Assembly: GCF_015711605.1 (NCBI RefSeq)
Contig: NZ_JABTEZ010000004.1
Location: 558,001 to 622,000, forward strand
Direction of reading: 5' to 3'
DNA length: 64,000 nt
Source: Planomonospora sp. ID67723
GTDB lineage: Bacteria > Actinomycetota > Actinomycetes > Streptosporangiales > Streptosporangiaceae
Made by a program: the position numbers and the translations under genes. Position 1 is the stretch's first letter. Every line of letters begins with the position of its first letter. Under the pieces are notes generated by a model. It searched no databases, was not told the DNA's origin, and worked only from the letters and a program-made list of their open reading frames with translations. Shown here piece after piece: positions 46,475 through 52,545 of this stretch.

Positions 46475-47217
46475 ACGAGGAACCGATGGACCGCTCCCTG
46501 ATCAGTAGCATCGCCCATTGCGACCACCCGATCGCCGCCCCGGTGAGCGCCGCCAGCCTGGACACGCTGCTACGGCGGACCAAGCTCCGCCAGGGGGCCC
46601 GCATCCTCGACCTCGGCTGCGGCGAGGCGATGTGGACGTTGCGGGCGCTGGAGCTGTTTCCCGGCTCGACCGCTGACGGCGTGGACATCTCCGCCAGTGC
46701 CCTGGCCGCCGCGGCCAAGCACGCCGAGGCGCGCGGGCTGGGCGAGCGCATCCGGCTGCACGAGATGGGGGCGGCGGACTTCAGCGCTGCCGAGCCGTAC
46801 GATCTGGTGCTGTGCGTCGGCTCCACCCACGCCTTCGACGGTCTCACGCCGAGCTTGCAGGCGATCAGGCAGCTGACCCGGTCAGAGGGGCTGGTGCTGG
46901 TGGGGGAGGGCTTCTGGGAGACGCCCCCCTCGCCGGAGCTGGAGGCCGAGATCGGCCAATACCCTGACTTGGCCGGACTTGTCGCCCAGGCCGAGGAGCC
47001 CGGGTATCGCACCGTCTACGCGCACACCAGCTCGCTGGGCGAGTGGGACGAGTACGAGTGGTCGTGGACCGGCTCGCTGGCCCGCTGGGCGATGGACAAC
47101 CCAGGGCCCGGCGGCGACACCGCGCTCGCCGCCGCGCTGGAGCACCGTGACATGTGGCTCAAGGGCTACCGCGGCAAGCTCGGCTTCGTCACCTTGCTAC
47201 TGCGTCACGCGTATTAG
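46471..47217 (+). CDS. SAM-dependent class I methyltransferase
   Basis: The 248-residue enzyme has motif I ARILDLGCGEAMWTLRALEL, motif II DGVDISASALAAAAKHAE, then YDLVLCVGSTHAF and LVLVGEGFWETPP. The class I methyltransferase fold is certain; the substrate is not. The start is GTG 46471, overlapping the reductase stop by 4 nt; ATG 46486 is an alternative. It ends the cupin-glycosyltransferase-reductase-methyltransferase run, which resembles a small tailoring or resistance cassette. Confidence 0.9.
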   Translation: MNEEPMDRSLISSIAHCDHPIAAPVSAASLDTLLRRTKLRQGARILDLGCGEAMWTLRALELFPGSTADGVDISASALAAAAKHAEARGLGERIRLHEMGAADFSAAEPYDLVLCVGSTHAFDGLTPSLQAIRQLTRSEGLVLVGEGFWETPPSPELEAEIGQYPDLAGLVAQAEEPGYRTVYAHTSSLGEWDEYEWSWTGSLARWAMDNPGPGGDTALAAALEHRDMWLKGYRGKLGFVTLLLRHAY

Positions 47218-47236
47218 CCGGACCCTTCCGAGCAGT

Positions 47237-47295
47237 GCCTCGAACCTCTTGTCCCGCAAACAGCCCAAACGCTTCCGGGACAAGAGGTTCGAGGC
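47237..47295. repeat. 20-bp perfect inverted repeat
   Basis: GCCTCGAACCTCTTGTCCCG (47237-47256) and its exact complement (47276-47295) flank a 19-nt loop, starting 19 nt after the methyltransferase stop. It is unusually long for a terminator and has no T-run. A tyrosine-recombinase relic follows, so it could also be a recombination site. Confidence 0.75.
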
Positions 47296-47439
47296 GTCGA
47301 TGCCGAAGCGGAGCAGTTCGGCGGATAACTCCGGTCCTCACATGAACCGGGCGCACTTGAGGATGATCTTGAAGGGTGGTTGGCGGGAGTTCACACTGGG
47401 CGCCGTCGGCACTGCCATGGATAACGGTCCTTATCGGCG

Positions 47440-47813
47440 ACCGCAACTGCGGGCCGCTGTTCATCGGCCACCGCCGCCCCGGCCCCGGCAAGAAGATCGA
47501 CGTCCGTGACCTATGCCCGGACACCGGACGAGCCCGCCTGTCCTACGGACAAGCCCGCTCCCTATTCGACACGGCCACCTGCATCGGCGGCGAAGCGGGC
47601 ACCGGATGCGACCTGCGCGAACTCCGCCACTCCGCCCTCACCCACCTGGGCGAGTCGGGGCTATCGCTACTGCTGTTCATGGCCAAGTCCCGGCACAAGA
47701 AGGAACAGCACGCCCGCCGCTACTTCAAACCCTCACACGCCACCATGGCCGAGGTCACCGCCGTCCTCGGCCCCGCCGCCTGGCCCTCCGTCTCCCACGC
47801 AACCCCGGCCTGA
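47440..47813 (+). pseudogene. tyrosine recombinase C-terminal relic
   Basis: The frame has RARLSYGQARSLFDTATC, LRELRHSALTHLGESGLSLL, MAKSRHKKEQHARRYFKPSH, corresponding to the end of the catalytic domain. The second Arg (LRH) and a candidate nucleophile Tyr (RRYF) are present, but the first position of the HxxR motif is Arg. The whole N-terminal half, with the first catalytic Arg, is missing. Confidence 0.7.
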
Positions 47814-47957
47814 CCGTCACACAAGATCGTTCTCAGCGATAACCGCCGTTCCTGGATTCCTCAACCCCGGGTACCTTCAACGCGCTGTCGAGGAACTGGC
47901 CGTACATGCAGCGGTGGCCGAGTCTGAGCTGGCTGCCTCCGGACTTGTTCCGGTTCG

Positions 47958-48053
47958 GTGACGGTCGTCTACGGTGAGGTCCTCGACGAGCTGCCGACCC
48001 GGGCCGCCCGGTACGGCACCGTGCATGCGATCGAGCGCGCCGGCGACTACTGA
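47958..48053 (+). other. 31-codon coding scrap
   Basis: GTG 47958 opens a short frame (VTVVYGEVLDELPTRAARYG) ending at TGA 48051. Its composition is protein-like, but it is too short to identify and is probably a gene end. Confidence 0.25.
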
Positions 48054-48069
48054 GCAAGAAAGCCGGAGG

Positions 48070-48381
48070 TTACGTCGGATCAGCGATCGTCAGTCCGGTC
48101 TCGGCGATGAACCCGTTGAGCAGGTCGGGCCGGCGCAGCTCGCGTACCTCGCGCTCGAGTTCGGCGAGGCGCTGGGCATCGGCGGTGGAGGTACCGGGCC
48201 GCTGCCGGTTGTCGATCTCGGCTTGGCGGACCCAGCCGCGTAGTGCTTCGCGGTGCACACCGAGCTGTTCGGCGACGCGGGCGATCGCGCCCTTCGGCTC
48301 ACCGGTGCGCTCTCGGATCTCAAAGACCATCCATACCGCGCGCTCGCGGAGCTCGTCGGGGTACTTCCTGGGGGCTGGCAT
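48070..48381 (-). mobile_element. IS3-family OrfA fragment
   Basis: The 103-codon frame starts MPAPRKYPDELRERAVWMVF and continues IARVAEQLGVHREALRGWVR and AQRLAELEREVRELRR. This is a typical IS3 OrfA with HTH and leucine zipper. After REL-RR it departs from the family (the usual ANEILK... is missing), so the element is cut there. OrfB is absent here; an OrfB scrap lies at 11.1 kb. Confidence 0.85.
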
Positions 48382-48449
48382 CGCGTGTGATTCTCCCTTC
48401 CGCCAGCAAGATCATGCTGGCTTCAGGGCCTCCAGGGAACCCGGCGCGG

Positions 48450-48626
48450 TTCACGGTGATGCCGGACCTTATTGAAGGTTCCCCGCGACCCGCCGGTGGA
48501 GATTCTCGCGCTGGCGGGTTCATTCCGGCGGTGGAGCCGGGCCTCGTCGAAGGGCCCACGTCGGCTCGTAGATCGCCCAGCCCCCAGGCGGTTCATTTCG
48601 GCGGTGACGCCGGACCTCGTTGAAGG
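48450..48626 (-). repeat. degenerate CRISPR-like repeats, block 1 (three units)
   Basis: Three related units start at 48450, 48519 and 48592 (periods 69 and 73 nt). On the minus strand the consensus reads CTTCAACGAGGTCCGGC, TCCACC, then GCCGGAATGAAC. It is about 36 nt with a CCGGC/GCCGG hairpin and a 3' handle like ATTGAAAC. Unit 1 lacks 6 nt. The intervening 37-40 nt are unrelated to each other. No cas genes are in the window. Confidence 0.5.
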
Positions 48627-48861
48627 CTCGAGCGCGACATCCGGCTCGCACGCCAGGTCGCGTTCATTGGGTCACCGACACCCGCGGCCACCGGGTCACG
48701 GCCCGGCGCGTCCGTCTGGCCCCCGCCGTCATCCAGCGCACCACCACGAAGATGTAGTGACACGAGCACGAGCACGAGACCTGGCCAGGCCCGGCGGCGC
48801 CGTGGCGGCCGTCCCCCTCCTGCCGTGGACGCCCGGCCGCCGCCGTACCTCGACGGGGGTG

Positions 48862-49683
48862 TCAGTCCTTGAAGTAGACCAGTTGGTGGCTGGACGCCAG
48901 CAGGGTGCCGCCGCGGCCCCACAGGTGGGCCGTCTGGTCGAAGTAGCCGCGTGAGAAGCGGCGGGTGCGCGCGGTGCCCAGGACGTGGTCGGCGCCCTGG
49001 GCCGCGATCTCCTCCGCGTCGGCGTGGAAGTACATGGTGAGGGAGACGGTGCCGGCCGGCACGTACCGGCCGCGCCGCAGGAACACCCGCGGGTAGAACA
49101 CGTCGCACAGCGATGCCAGCGCCGGGAAGTCGAGGGGGCGGGCCGGGTCGTCGCGCACCCACAGCGTCGAGGTCGAGTCCGGGTGCTCGCCGGCGTCCTG
49201 GTCCGGCACCGCGCCCTCGACGAACCGCATCTCGTAGTTCTGGGCCCAGGCGATGAAGTCCGGGAAGCTCTGCACGGGCACGGCCTCGGGAGGCGGCGCC
49301 GACGGCATGTCGATCTCGGTGTCCGACCACGTGTCGCGGTGGACGCCGAACACCGCGGTGGCGGTGGTCGTCACGGCGCCGTCCTGCGTCAGTTCGAGCG
49401 TCCAGTGCTGGTTGGTGCGGTTGGTGCGCACGGCCCGCGCGGTGATGTCGAAGTCGCCGTCGGCGACGGGGGCGGCGTAGTTGACGGTGAGGGAGAGCGG
49501 ATCGCCGAGCCGGTCGGGGTGCTGCTGGACGGCCCGCAGGAGGGTGGCGGCGGTGATGCCGCCGAAGGGGCCGACCATGTTCGCGTACTCCGGCCGGGTC
49601 CGGCTCGTGATGCGGCCGTCGGTCGCGGGGGGCAGGGCGATGGCCGCGTCGAACGGATGCGGCGGAGCGTCGATCTCGGTCAC
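48862..49683 (-). CDS. acyl-CoA thioesterase-like double-hotdog protein
   Basis: The 273-residue protein is a TesB-like fusion of two hotdog domains. The first contains YANMVGPFGGITAATLLRAV and PLSLTVNYAAPVADGDFDIT. The second contains FLRRGRYVPAGTVSLTMYFH and GYFDQTAHLWGRGGTLLASS. It probably hydrolyses acyl-CoA. GTG 49683 has AGGAGA upstream; a longer reading would run into the divergent TetR promoter. It is divergent from a TetR regulator with a palindromic operator between them. Confidence 0.87.
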   Translation of the reverse strand: MTEIDAPPHPFDAAIALPPATDGRITSRTRPEYANMVGPFGGITAATLLRAVQQHPDRLGDPLSLTVNYAAPVADGDFDITARAVRTNRTNQHWTLELTQDGAVTTTATAVFGVHRDTWSDTEIDMPSAPPPEAVPVQSFPDFIAWAQNYEMRFVEGAVPDQDAGEHPDSTSTLWVRDDPARPLDFPALASLCDVFYPRVFLRRGRYVPAGTVSLTMYFHADAEEIAAQGADHVLGTARTRRFSRGYFDQTAHLWGRGGTLLASSHQLVYFKD

Positions 49684-49727
49684 GCTGTCTCCTCGGAGCG
49701 GAACGGGGGTTCCTTCGCATACGGGTG

Positions 49728-49747
49728 TATGTATGACAACATACATA
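49728..49747. promoter_or_regulatory. probable TetR operator
   Basis: TATGTATG-ACAA-CATACATA is a perfect 8-bp-arm dyad in the gap between the divergent thioesterase and TetR genes, the only AT-rich stretch there. Confidence 0.75.
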
Positions 49748-49774
49748 GAGCCGGTGACGACGGGAGCAGAGGGT

Positions 49775-50365
49775 ATGGCGAGAGAGCAGGACCCGGCCGG
49801 TCCCCGCGCGGCGATGATCCGTAGCGCGATCAGGCTGATCCGCCGACGCGGCATCGCCGCGGTCTCGTTCGCCGACGTCCTGGCCGACAGCGGCGCGCCG
49901 CGCGGTTCGATCTATCATCACTTCCCCGGCGGCAAGTCCCAGCTCGTCGAGGAGGCCACCCGCAGCGCCGCCGAGCAGCTGAACACCCGGGTGGCCCGGG
50001 TGCTCGGCGCCTCGGACGCGCCGGGCGCGCTGCGCGCGATGGCCGACCTGTGGCGCCGCGGCCTCGAGGCCGGCGACCACACCGTCGGCTGCCCGATCGT
50101 CGCGGCGGCCCTGGGCACCGAACGGACCGCCCGGGACATCGCCGGGGAGACGTTCGAGACCTGGTGCGGCCTGATCGCCGACAAGCTCGTCGCGGACGGA
50201 GCCGACCCGCGGCGGGCGCGGTCCGTGGCGGTGCTCGTCGTCGGAGCGCTCGAGGGCGCGCTCGTGTTCGCCCAGGCGCAGCGCTCCTCGGCGCCCCTCG
50301 ACACGGTGGTCGACGAGCTGAGCGCGCTGTGCCGGTCGGTGATCGGCGCCACGCGCCGGGCGTAG
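49775..50365 (+). CDS. TetR-family regulator
   Basis: The 196-residue protein has an HTH (MIRSAIRLIRRRGIAAVSFA, then VLADSGAPRGSIYHHFPGGK) and a LmrA/YxaF-type C-terminal domain (HTVGCPIVAAALGTE). ATG 49775 follows GGGAGCAGAGGG; starting at ATG 49733 would place the operator dyad inside the coding region. It most likely represses itself and the divergent thioesterase. Confidence 0.9.
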   Translation: MAREQDPAGPRAAMIRSAIRLIRRRGIAAVSFADVLADSGAPRGSIYHHFPGGKSQLVEEATRSAAEQLNTRVARVLGASDAPGALRAMADLWRRGLEAGDHTVGCPIVAAALGTERTARDIAGETFETWCGLIADKLVADGADPRRARSVAVLVVGALEGALVFAQAQRSSAPLDTVVDELSALCRSVIGATRRA

Positions 50366-50407
50366 CGCCCCGGCGGTGATCGACGCCGCGGCACCGGTCA
50401 GCGCAGG

Positions 50408-50675
50408 ATGAGCACGTCCTCCCGGCGGGGACGAGCTCCCCGATCACCGGCGCGCCCGGGATCTCTCCGGCGAGCAGCAGCCGCCGGAGGTCTGGGCGTT
50501 GGCCAGCAGCAACCGGGTCTCCTCGTCCGCCCGGCCGAAGTCGGCGTGCGGCGCGACCCAGTCGAGGTTGCGCCGCGTTCCCCCGTCGCGTACGGCCTCG
50601 CGGGCCCCGGACAGGTACGGCACCGCCGCCGTGTCGATCACTGCCGACACCCCGGACGCCCTCGCCACCTTGTAC
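50408..50675 (-). pseudogene. selD: selenide, water dikinase (SelD) C-terminal relic
   Basis: The minus-strand frame reads ARASGVSAVIDTAAVPYLSG, RRNLDWVAPHADFGRADEET, RLLLANAQTSGG. One base is then missing near 50480 and the frame continues LLLAGEIPGAPVIGELVPAG. The ADPQTSGGLL-type motif and the closing VIGE-V strand are the SelD C-terminus. About 250 upstream residues, with the catalytic Cys/Sec, are gone. Confidence 0.75.
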
Positions 50676-50683
50676 AGGTGACC

Positions 50684-50792
50684 GTCATTCCGGCGGTGGA
50701 GCCGGACCTCGTTGAAGGGACTGCAGGTACGAGCGGGGCCTGCTCGTCTCCTACGGGTTCATCCCGGTGATGGCACCGGGCCTCGTCGAAGA
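50684..50792 (-). repeat. degenerate CRISPR-like repeats, block 2 (two units plus a partial)
   Basis: Units start at 50684 and 50758 (period 74 nt). A partial unit, TTCATCGG, sits one further period on at 50832. They match block 1 at 48.5 kb. The unit at 50758 has CCGGTG...CACCGG where others have CCGGC...GCCGG, a compensatory change that keeps the hairpin. Confidence 0.5.
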
Positions 50793-51009
50793 GACATCCA
50801 GACCGGCGGCTCCTCCACCAGCACCCGAGGTTCATCGGATAGAAGGCCAGGTTGAGTGAGATGAGGCCCCGGTCAGACAGAGCCGACCAAGATCTGATGC
50901 GCCAACGAGAGCCTCATTGTTGTCTTATCCCGCCGCGATGCTCGTGCGGACCTCGGCGGCAAGACGGGCACAGCGCTGACGGGTCTCAGCGATCTGCGCC
51001 GGATGGCGC

Positions 51010-51390
51010 GAGGAGGAGGCGCCCGGCATCGTGCACCCCGGCGGGACGCTGATCACCCGGACCGGTGACGACGTGCGGTGGTGGACCTGGGCCGGCTACC
51101 GCGCGAACGCCACGCTCGCCGCCACACTGCCATCGATCGCCGACCCGGTCCAGCGGCCGACGGATTTTCCGTACGGCTGCGCGAGGACCTACCCCCCGCC
51201 GCCTGGCAGGAGGCCCGCGACAGAGCGGGCGACGGGGAGATCCTGGTGCTGCCGGACGTCGACCGCCGTGCCGTCAGCGGGCTGAAGTTCTCCGCCGTCC
51301 TACCGGAACGGCTGGCGGCGGCGACGGACACGGTCGCGGCCCGGCTGGCCGACTTCAATGGCGACCTCGGCGGCGGCGGTGGGGTGCCTG
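51010..51390 (+). pseudogene. ATP-dependent helicase C-terminal relic
   Basis: The frame reads IVHPGGTLITRTGDDVRWWT and WAGYRANATLAATL. Then, after a shift near 51160, it gives FSVRLREDLPPAAWQEARDR, VLPDVDRRAVSGLKFSAVLP and ERLAAATDTVAARLADF. I recognise the end of a large actinobacterial DEAD/DEAH-type helicase. The helicase core and start are absent. Confidence 0.6.
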
Positions 51391-51400
51391 CAGCCGGTGA

Positions 51401-51725
51401 CGGACACTCGAGAGGCGGTGGTGGGTCATCCGGGTGGCTTCGCCTCGGCGTCTCCGCAGTTCAAGGCCTCCGATGGAGTCAGGTCGCAGGGCTGGGGCCT
51501 GATCGAGGTGACATCGACGGTGTCTCGGTAGATGCGGGCGTGACCCTCACCACTGACGGGAGTTCCGTACTGAGCACGGATGTGCGCCGTACAGGCTCGG
51601 AGTCAAATGGTGGCGACCGGTTCGAAGGAAAACCGGAGCAGCTCTTCGCTCTTCGGACCGCTTTCCCCATCAATCGTCATGAGGCGCCGTCGTCCGACGA
51701 CGGTGCCCACAGTAAGGAGACCAGC
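51401..51725. other. intergenic region, no gene seen
   Basis: No frame looks coding. GTAAGGAGACC near its end is the ribosome-binding site of the secreted-protein gene at 51726. Confidence 0.5.
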
Positions 51726-52247
51726 ATGGCCAAGCCCGGCCTCAGAGTCCTCGCACTAGCCGTCACCACCACGCTGATCGGTCTGACCACTCTCCCGGGA
51801 TCGTCATATGCATCAACCGCATCGACGGCTGCGTCGGCGCCGAACCCCCGCAACCTGATGCTCCCGTTCGAACATGTCGAGGACCTCTTCTCGCGTCCCG
51901 GCCACGCTATTTTCGGGAGCAGGCTGTGGAGCGCCTTCCCTGTCGGCGACTGTGTCATGGCACCGGCCTTCGATAGAGACCCCGTCACCGTGGGGATCGA
52001 TTACACCACCAACGAGCTGATCTGGCACGCACGGGCCTGGACCACCCACACCAACAGCGCCGACATCTGGCACAGCACCTTCTCCTTCCTCAACAGCGCC
52101 GGCCAAATCCTGGCCACCGTGAAGGCACCGGATGGGCCGCGGATGCCGCGGATCAACACGACGTACGAGTGGGAGCGCGTCGTCTCCTTCCCGAACCGCC
52201 CCAACTTCACGGAAGTGGCCTCGATCCGCTGGCATGCCGCGTGCTAG
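51726..52247 (+). CDS. small secreted protein of unknown function
   Basis: The 173-residue product has a signal peptide (MAKPGLRVLALAVTTTLIGL, cut near SYA). A roughly 140-residue beta-rich domain follows, with two cysteines (VGDCVMAP and the final Cys residue) that could bond. Aromatic-rich strands include VGIDYTTNELIWHARAWTTH and HSTFSFLNSAGQILATV. ATG 51726 is supported by AAGGAGA. It is not recognised; the size is like the secreted protein at 5 kb, but the sequences do not obviously match. Confidence 0.72.
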   Translation: MAKPGLRVLALAVTTTLIGLTTLPGSSYASTASTAASAPNPRNLMLPFEHVEDLFSRPGHAIFGSRLWSAFPVGDCVMAPAFDRDPVTVGIDYTTNELIWHARAWTTHTNSADIWHSTFSFLNSAGQILATVKAPDGPRMPRINTTYEWERVVSFPNRPNFTEVASIRWHAAC

Positions 52248-52251
52248 AAGA

Positions 52252-52545
52252 TCACCGAAAGTCTTTTGTTCTCGTCTCACCCGGGGTGAGAGGAGGCCAG
52301 GCAGGAACCGGGTGATCTTCACCAGGCATCGACCCTCTGAGCACGGCGAACAGGGCCAAGGCCGGCAGCGAGCCGAGCTGGCAGCGGCGGCTGCGCGGGC
52401 GGGTTGCGGCAGCCAGAACCTCAGCCAGTGCGGGCAGGCCAAACAGTGGATCGGCTGTGGAGACGTGTTCCATGTGGCGGACGAGCACGTCGGTCGGGGA
52501 TGACGGTGCATGAACGCGGTCCCTGTTCTTGATCGTCTGGCGCAG
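52252..52545 (-). mobile_element. ISAs1-family transposase N-terminal relic
   Basis: The frame reads GLPALAEVLAAATRPRSRRC and QLGSLPALALFAVLRG, the conserved opening of ISAs1/IS1380-like transposases (L-DVLA-V-DPR-RRG-R-L-LLALAVLAVLAG). After that it is unrelated and soon ends. Confidence 0.65.

Follow-up and report, generated by a model that had tools for sequence, protein, structure and literature searches.

The closest described counterparts of the locus reported here are type I-G (formerly I-U) systems of clustered regularly interspaced short palindromic repeats (CRISPR). The complete and active system of Thioalkalivibrio sulfidiphilus has a 36-nt repeat, which Csb2 cuts 4 nt past the hairpin to leave an 8-nt handle, and TTN as the protospacer adjacent motif (PAM) cited for type I-G (PMC9638904). 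That of Bifidobacterium lactis has a 36-bp repeat and spacers near 36 bp, together with a cas4-cas1 fusion, a consensus repeat identical in all genomes and a TAT PAM (PMC12915315); for a mycobacterial type I-G array, 93% repeat conservation is reported (PMC10333696). Herein, we analyze a stretch of 64,000 nt from Planomonospora sp. ID67723 (contig NZ_JABTEZ010000004.1, positions 558,001 to 622,000; "the window", counted from its first letter), which contains what is very probably a piece of a type I-G CRISPR array, orphaned and flanked by transposon sequences. The locus has repeat and spacer sizes in common with B. lactis and differs from it in the cas4-cas1 fusion, the consensus repeat common to all genomes and the TAT PAM. 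With T. sulfidiphilus it shares the 36-nt repeat, the putative 8-nt handle and a candidate TTN PAM; the cut 4 nt after the hairpin was measured there and is predicted here, the likeness being one of geometry. Unlike that system, the window holds a relic, which is itself ordinary genome debris. The part of interest is rather the drift pattern in its relatives.

Structure of the array

A repeat search of the window returned a 35-nt family at 48520, 48593, 50685 and 50759 (83–94% identity to the reference copy; starts 73, 2092 and 74 nt apart) and a shortened unit at 48454. Overall, five copies of the unit are recognizable, at 48454 (partial), 48518, 48591, 50685 and 50757, plus short pieces at 48662 and 50830, with starts 71–75 nt apart within each block. 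The end motif CCTYRTYGAAGR was found ten times in the window with at most one mismatch, against 2.42 expected (0/100 shuffles reach 10), and its five exact matches are all in the five units. The preliminary description of this DNA had listed five units of about 36 nt and some partial ones, and they are indeed where it placed them; its periods of 73–74 nt and spacers of 37–38 nt came near to the actual ranges (71–75 and 35–39 nt). Its list has to be amended, however. The GTTCA of the first unit is the end of an insertion sequence (IS) relic, and the first repeat is therefore a 25-nt 3' remnant; the unit at 50685 fits together with GTTCATT at 48662 as one repeat in two pieces, 2016 bp apart; and the last unit, at 50830, is truncated. 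Six repeats in all, of which three are full, one is split and two are truncated, make up the array (Table 1), and the 36-nt repeats and 35–39-nt spacers have the sizes of a type I-G array.

Folding predicted a hairpin in 4/4 near-complete repeats and confirmed, on the minus strand, the earlier observation that the unit at 50757 (50758 in the preliminary description) had changed both stem arms together, keeping the stem. The mean identity of the four near-complete repeats is 0.82, or 0.84 without two insert bases.

Type I-G assignment and orphan status

Relatives were represented by 297 genomes from this family, sampled from a larger group. A covariance model of the repeat matched 37 of them, with more than one copy in the Planomonospora genome and six others (G202, G071, G207, G068, G212 and G227); the single matches in the other 30 may be due to chance. 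In G202, a Sphaerisporangium, a 15-unit array of the window repeat class lies 0.4 kb upstream of csb1, csb2, cas3 and cas8g (Pfam, PADLOC). The csb1 gene is present in 36/297 genomes. Its distance from the repeat-class array is at most 0.4 kb in G202 and G068 and about 6 kb (at most 6.1 kb) for G071 and G207; G212 has it on the array contig but far off, and G227 lacks it. The array of Sphaerisporangium fuscum (L220, same contig as G202:C27) and that of the window share the 36–37-nt repeat class with its hairpin, the 3' sequence CCTC(A/G)TTG..GG, a period of about 73 bp and one target site. They differ in that the window array has lost its leader and is split by an insert, and in that S. fuscum possesses csb1, csb2, cas3 and cas8g, whereas the first three were not found in the Planomonospora genome and cas8g was not searched there.

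The period of 71–75 also groups the window array with type I-G, given that the median period was 72–75 in 53/53 type I-G arrays and 61 in 35/35 type I-E arrays, with detection limited to periods of 56–84. The type I-G set consisted of arrays of at least six repeats at 32 csb1 stretches from 29 of the 36 csb1-bearing genomes, seven (G001, G024, G116, G176, G187, G279 and G281) having been left out before counting; the type I-E controls came from 19/21 stretches. Many type I-G stretches of the family (L170–L185, and named loci such as L222) carry at least two arrays, in many cases with csb1 between them.

Model searches of the Planomonospora genome (8.34 Mb, nine contigs, 99.83% complete) for the interference genes csb1, csb2 and Cas3g returned none of them; the same models found csb2 in 21/29 and Cas3g in 29/29 csb1-bearing relatives, Cas3g standing beside csb1 in every case and having an internal stop in one (G070). 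The array was consequently filed as an orphan remnant and not as a system. In relatives, csb1 and cas3 stand next to the same repeat class; the genome itself, in which the preliminary description had proposed a search for cas genes, has a type I-E locus at G000:C1:2260000-2279000 (L065; cas7e at C1:2267487, a Cas1 match at C1:2270088). Its arrays of 15 and 35 units are CRISPR arrays of the same cell, but they have a 29-nt repeat unlike that of the window, a 61-bp period and nearly uniform repeats. A 111-nt query from the right block found no close copies of the unit outside the locus in the whole genome. The next-best matches, of 34/40 nt at two places (S4 region), were considered as a possible self-target and judged to be chance; they lie in coding-looking DNA, presumably an EAL-domain-like coding stretch when viewed by eye.

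Spacers and their targets

Spacer S2 and one spacer of the G202 array are alike in 27/34 positions counted from the same first base, while the others of the 70 spacer pairs reach at most 18 and 1000 shuffles at most 21. Their first 29 nt contain three differences, all at third codon positions of GWAIY(E/D)PTW. This codon pattern, with at most one mismatch, occurs in 12/297 genomes, that is, in the two arrays and in 11 small-gene copies from ten genomes; a reversed-pattern control occurs in 0/297. The gene copies match S2 in 26–31 of 37 positions, and TTN stands on the 5' side of the target in 7/11 of them, although these bases lie in a mostly conserved codon and concern 1/5 spacers only. Among six copies inspected, three are beside FtsK/SpoIIIE genes, and one of these is also beside DUF2637; such neighbors resemble those of actinomycete integrative conjugative elements. 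Capture on two occasions, from related elements and at one site, explains the likeness of S2 and the G202 spacer; random decay of a single inherited spacer would not confine the changes to third codon positions.

Phage protospacers, for which the preliminary description had suggested looking, did not appear: five blastn searches against 50,697 phage records gave no match better than E 0.04. A search of viral_contigs did not recover the protospacer gene; four stretches there fit the peptide pattern, without confirmation of any of them. Neither of two single-gene copies matched an entry of Pfam or PHROGs. Compared with eight mobile-element stretches, the other spacers scored no better than 12 shuffles each (score/shuffle maximum: S1 26/27, S3 25/25, S4 25/25 and S5 24/25, with S5 taken one base longer).

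At one of the gene copies (L139), the GWAIYEPTW product is in a long open frame shared with a YAcAr (SLOG family) domain, and L142 looks alike by eye. A Pycsar-effector-like transmembrane domain (PycTM) is encoded beside another copy (L145).

Orientation and predicted processing

The plus-strand hairpin reaches as far as nt 24 of the 36-nt repeat, so that the Csb2 geometry measured for T. sulfidiphilus (PMC9638904) fits this strand and the handle GTTGAAGG. The strand of the CRISPR RNA (crRNA) is most likely the plus strand, and the minus-strand repeat with the handle GGAATGAAC, as initially described, is most likely wrong. When arrays of relatives were oriented with this 3' motif, identity to the consensus dropped from 5' to 3' in 27/36 of them, the trend that a 5' leader predicts.

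It is tempting to suppose that the intact array would have been transcribed on the plus strand and that Csb2 (a Cas5-Cas6 fusion) would have cleaved the repeats 4 nt past the hairpin, so that every spacer carried the 8-nt handle GTTGAAGG. Cas3 and the type I-G effector would then have destroyed DNA in which a TTN PAM precedes the target, and one target at least is presumably a gene found on conjugative-type mobile elements. In the present genome, the leader and the sought interference genes are missing, IS relics cut both ends, and a 2.0-kb mosaic sits inside one repeat, so that the relic should be inactive.

Repeat heterogeneity and Cas1

The preliminary description took the differences between repeats as a possible sign of an eroded array. 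Erosion does account for the ends and for the lack of a leader and of csb1, csb2 and Cas3g, but unequal repeats by themselves do not indicate it, because many arrays of relatives beside csb1 and cas3g are equally or more heterogeneous. The median of mean repeat identity was 0.877 in the 53 type I-G arrays (32 below 0.9) and 0.989 in the 35 type I-E controls (two below 0.9), with end repeats excluded and repeats extracted without gaps around an exact 8-mer anchor, a procedure that favors a conserved stretch. The window array falls inside the type I-G range of 0.67–1.0.

An example is G071, whose 54-unit type I-G array is 6 kb from csb1, with Cas3g between them. It contains 44 different repeats in interleaved classes with stem arms changing together. 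In the 41/54 repeats tested, there were 26 double-changed stem cells against 12.1 in shuffles (0/500), and 95% of stem cells were paired against at most 47% when slid; covarying pairs (3 vs. 2.5) and pair types (8 vs. 7.6) showed no excess. Two adjacent units of this array (L097, 11259 and 11332) have an identical spacer, likely through unit duplication.

Across 35 heterogeneous arrays, mutations were most frequent in the loop (median share 0.27), followed by the stem (0.11) and the 3' flank (0.05); the loop exceeded the stem in 32 arrays and the stem exceeded the 3' flank in 29. Double stem changes beat all 200 shuffles in 3/35 arrays (sum 92 against 49 expected), so strict compensation is not general. 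Adjacent repeats were more alike than random pairs in 32/36 arrays, 13 of them at P<0.05.

Uniformity of the repeats goes together with Cas1. Cas1 is near csb1 in 12/45 genomes tested, and 12/12 of these have uniform arrays (above 0.96, a cut chosen after seeing the data), compared to 9/33 genomes without Cas1 near csb1 (P 1e-5, phylogeny uncorrected). When any Cas1 of the genome with at least 200 bits was counted, uniform arrays were present in 19/24 genomes with it and 2/21 without. Named loci contributed to this test as follows: of 46, arrays were found in 33, and 16 entered it, with "Cas1 beside csb1" judged from coordinates; L230 and L259, both heterogeneous, were not included.

Since uniform repeats go with Cas1 beside csb1, repeats probably drift once adaptation, which renews them from the leader end, is lost while the interference genes are kept; crRNA processing would meanwhile still select for the 3' handle and, more loosely, for the stem. 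Going further, we tentatively propose, at somewhat less than an even chance, that the type I-G immunity of this family is largely an inherited, non-adapting set of guides: Cas1 was lost beside the interference genes, fresh repeats are no longer copied, and each repeat drifts independently, with selection acting on stem pairing and on the 3' handle. If so, repeat heterogeneity would be a clock for the end of adaptation, and the relic in the window would represent a late stage. Should the association survive correction for phylogeny, repeat diversity would date that end; it may then also account for arrays that are missed or split by strict CRISPR finders, and it would offer natural libraries of repeat variants, presumably still to be processed by Csb2. 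In the open-licence PubMed Central literature, we did not find mostly unequal type I-G repeats linked to the absence of Cas1 with csb1 and cas3g retained.

Alternative explanations

The preliminary description had also considered a family of palindromic intergenic elements, dispersed at hundreds of sites, or a structured RNA family. Neither was seen: the search of the whole genome found no such dispersed copies, and Rfam over 47000–52500 gave only two matches at E≤5, both below the gathering score and outside the repeats. The hairpin and the unequal copies would suit elements of the repetitive extragenic palindromic or miniature inverted-repeat transposable type, clustered here by chance. Such an origin is hardly credible, however, in view of spacers that are unrelated and near-constant in size, a gene-derived spacer common to another genus and the same repeat class beside type I-G cas genes, in addition to the lack of close copies elsewhere in the genome. 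A mini-array still in use, or a CreTA-like guide serving another Cascade in trans, would agree with the hairpins in all near-complete repeats and with the degenerate repeats that mark CreTA (PMC8501985). We consider it very improbable, as there is no leader, none of the cognate csb1, csb2 and Cas3g turned up in the genome (a search that did not extend to the small toxin RNA expected beside CreTA repeats), and the cas locus found there is of type I-E with 61-bp units unlike this repeat (other cas types were not sought systematically).

The remaining alternatives concern the origin of the heterogeneity. Uniform repeats might have diverged only after the array was orphaned, which the loss of leader and interference genes and the truncation of R0 and R6 would favor; with so many arrays beside csb1 and cas3g equally divergent and hairpins retained in the window, plain erosion of this kind seems rather unlikely. 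We regard it as unlikely, too, that repeat diversity was selected, e.g., against recombination between repeats. The stem-keeping, interleaved classes of G071 and their excess of double changes speak for selection, yet the same test gave no excess in covarying pairs or pair types, most other arrays show little excess, and uniformity tracks Cas1. Several points also weigh against the main reading, an orphaned type I-G fragment with repeats of a family that drifts, most likely after the loss of adaptation. A protospacer was identified for one of the five spacers only, with no significant match among the phage records, and the seven copies preceded by TTN are not independent, the bases lying in a mostly conserved codon; another type I-G system uses a TAT PAM (PMC12915315). 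Clade and Cas1 are nearly confounded, with 28/29 family genomes lacking an adjacent Cas1; a number of genomes (9/33) are nevertheless uniform without it; and compensatory stem changes exceed all shuffles in just three of the 35 arrays.

Borders, insert and neighboring genes

Table 1. Features of the array locus, in window coordinates
Feature	Position	Strand	Remarks
IS3-like relic	48048..48453		orfA 48070-48381 on minus strand (HTH_Tnp_1); orfB not seen
Repeat R0, 3' 25 nt only	48454..48478	+	Repeat search; border of relic
Spacer S1	48479..48517	+	Best phage match E 0.04
Repeat R1	48518..48553	+	
Spacer S2	48554..48590	+	Protospacer in small GWAIYEPTWA-motif gene of mobile elements; same site as G202 array spacer
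Repeat R2	48591..48626	+	
Spacer S3	48627..48661	+	No significant phage match
Split repeat R3, 5' piece (GTTCATT)	48662..48668	+	Duplicated stretch TCATT, 48664-48668
Mosaic insert	48669..50684		About 2.0 kb; blastn borders exactly on both ends
Expansin-like 3' end	48669-48762		Left 94 bp; 96% identical to gene end at C1:554228
Acyl-CoA thioesterase gene	48862-49740	-	Pfam 4HBT_3C
TetR gene	ends 50365	+	Pfam TetR_N, TetR_C_13_2
selD-like 3' end	50397-50684		Right 288 bp; 88% identical to end of selD-like gene at C2:1547839
Split repeat R3, 3' piece, 34 nt	50685..50718	+	
Spacer S4	50719..50756	+	
Repeat R5	50757..50792	+	Both stem arms altered jointly
Spacer S5	50793..50829	+	
Repeat R6, truncated	50830..50840	+	GTTCAT, then unlike
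IS debris	50841..50939	+	81% to three other own-genome copies
BrxHI-like helicase of bacteriophage exclusion (BREX) type, broken C-terminal piece	51012..51363	+	Over two frames

No leader is present 5' of the array; instead, R0 is abutted by a relic that we take to be of the IS3 kind, the Pfam label of its orfA (PF01527, 3.5e-12) being only Transposase. The GGTTCA end of the relic at 48453 adjoins and truncates R0. A stretch of 282 bp that ends exactly at window position 48453 is found at 85% identity in the sister genome G058, and 86 bp recur at 99% at another place in the Planomonospora genome.

That the array had been opened by an insertion, as initially described, agrees with the split repeat, with the blastn borders at 48669 and 50684 and with a 5-nt duplication, TCATT, of one repeat on both sides of the insert. 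The insert is bounded by gene ends that, from reading the translations, we presume to be expansin-like and selD-like. The thioesterase/TetR pair between them (48857-50352) has a counterpart of 88.5% identity elsewhere in G058, in the company of other genes (L155). Such a mosaic could have formed when pieces of DNA were captured at a staggered break. The inverted GGTCACC at both ends had suggested a transposon; this reading was given up, as the gene fragment at either end has longer relatives at other places.

On the right side, two of the other copies of the IS debris have a transposase-like frame beside them, as judged by eye. The helicase piece that follows matched PADLOC PDLC02503 (7.7e-10 and 7.1e-6) and has a 69% relative in G058:C6. 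Overall, the array site looks like a decayed defense island.

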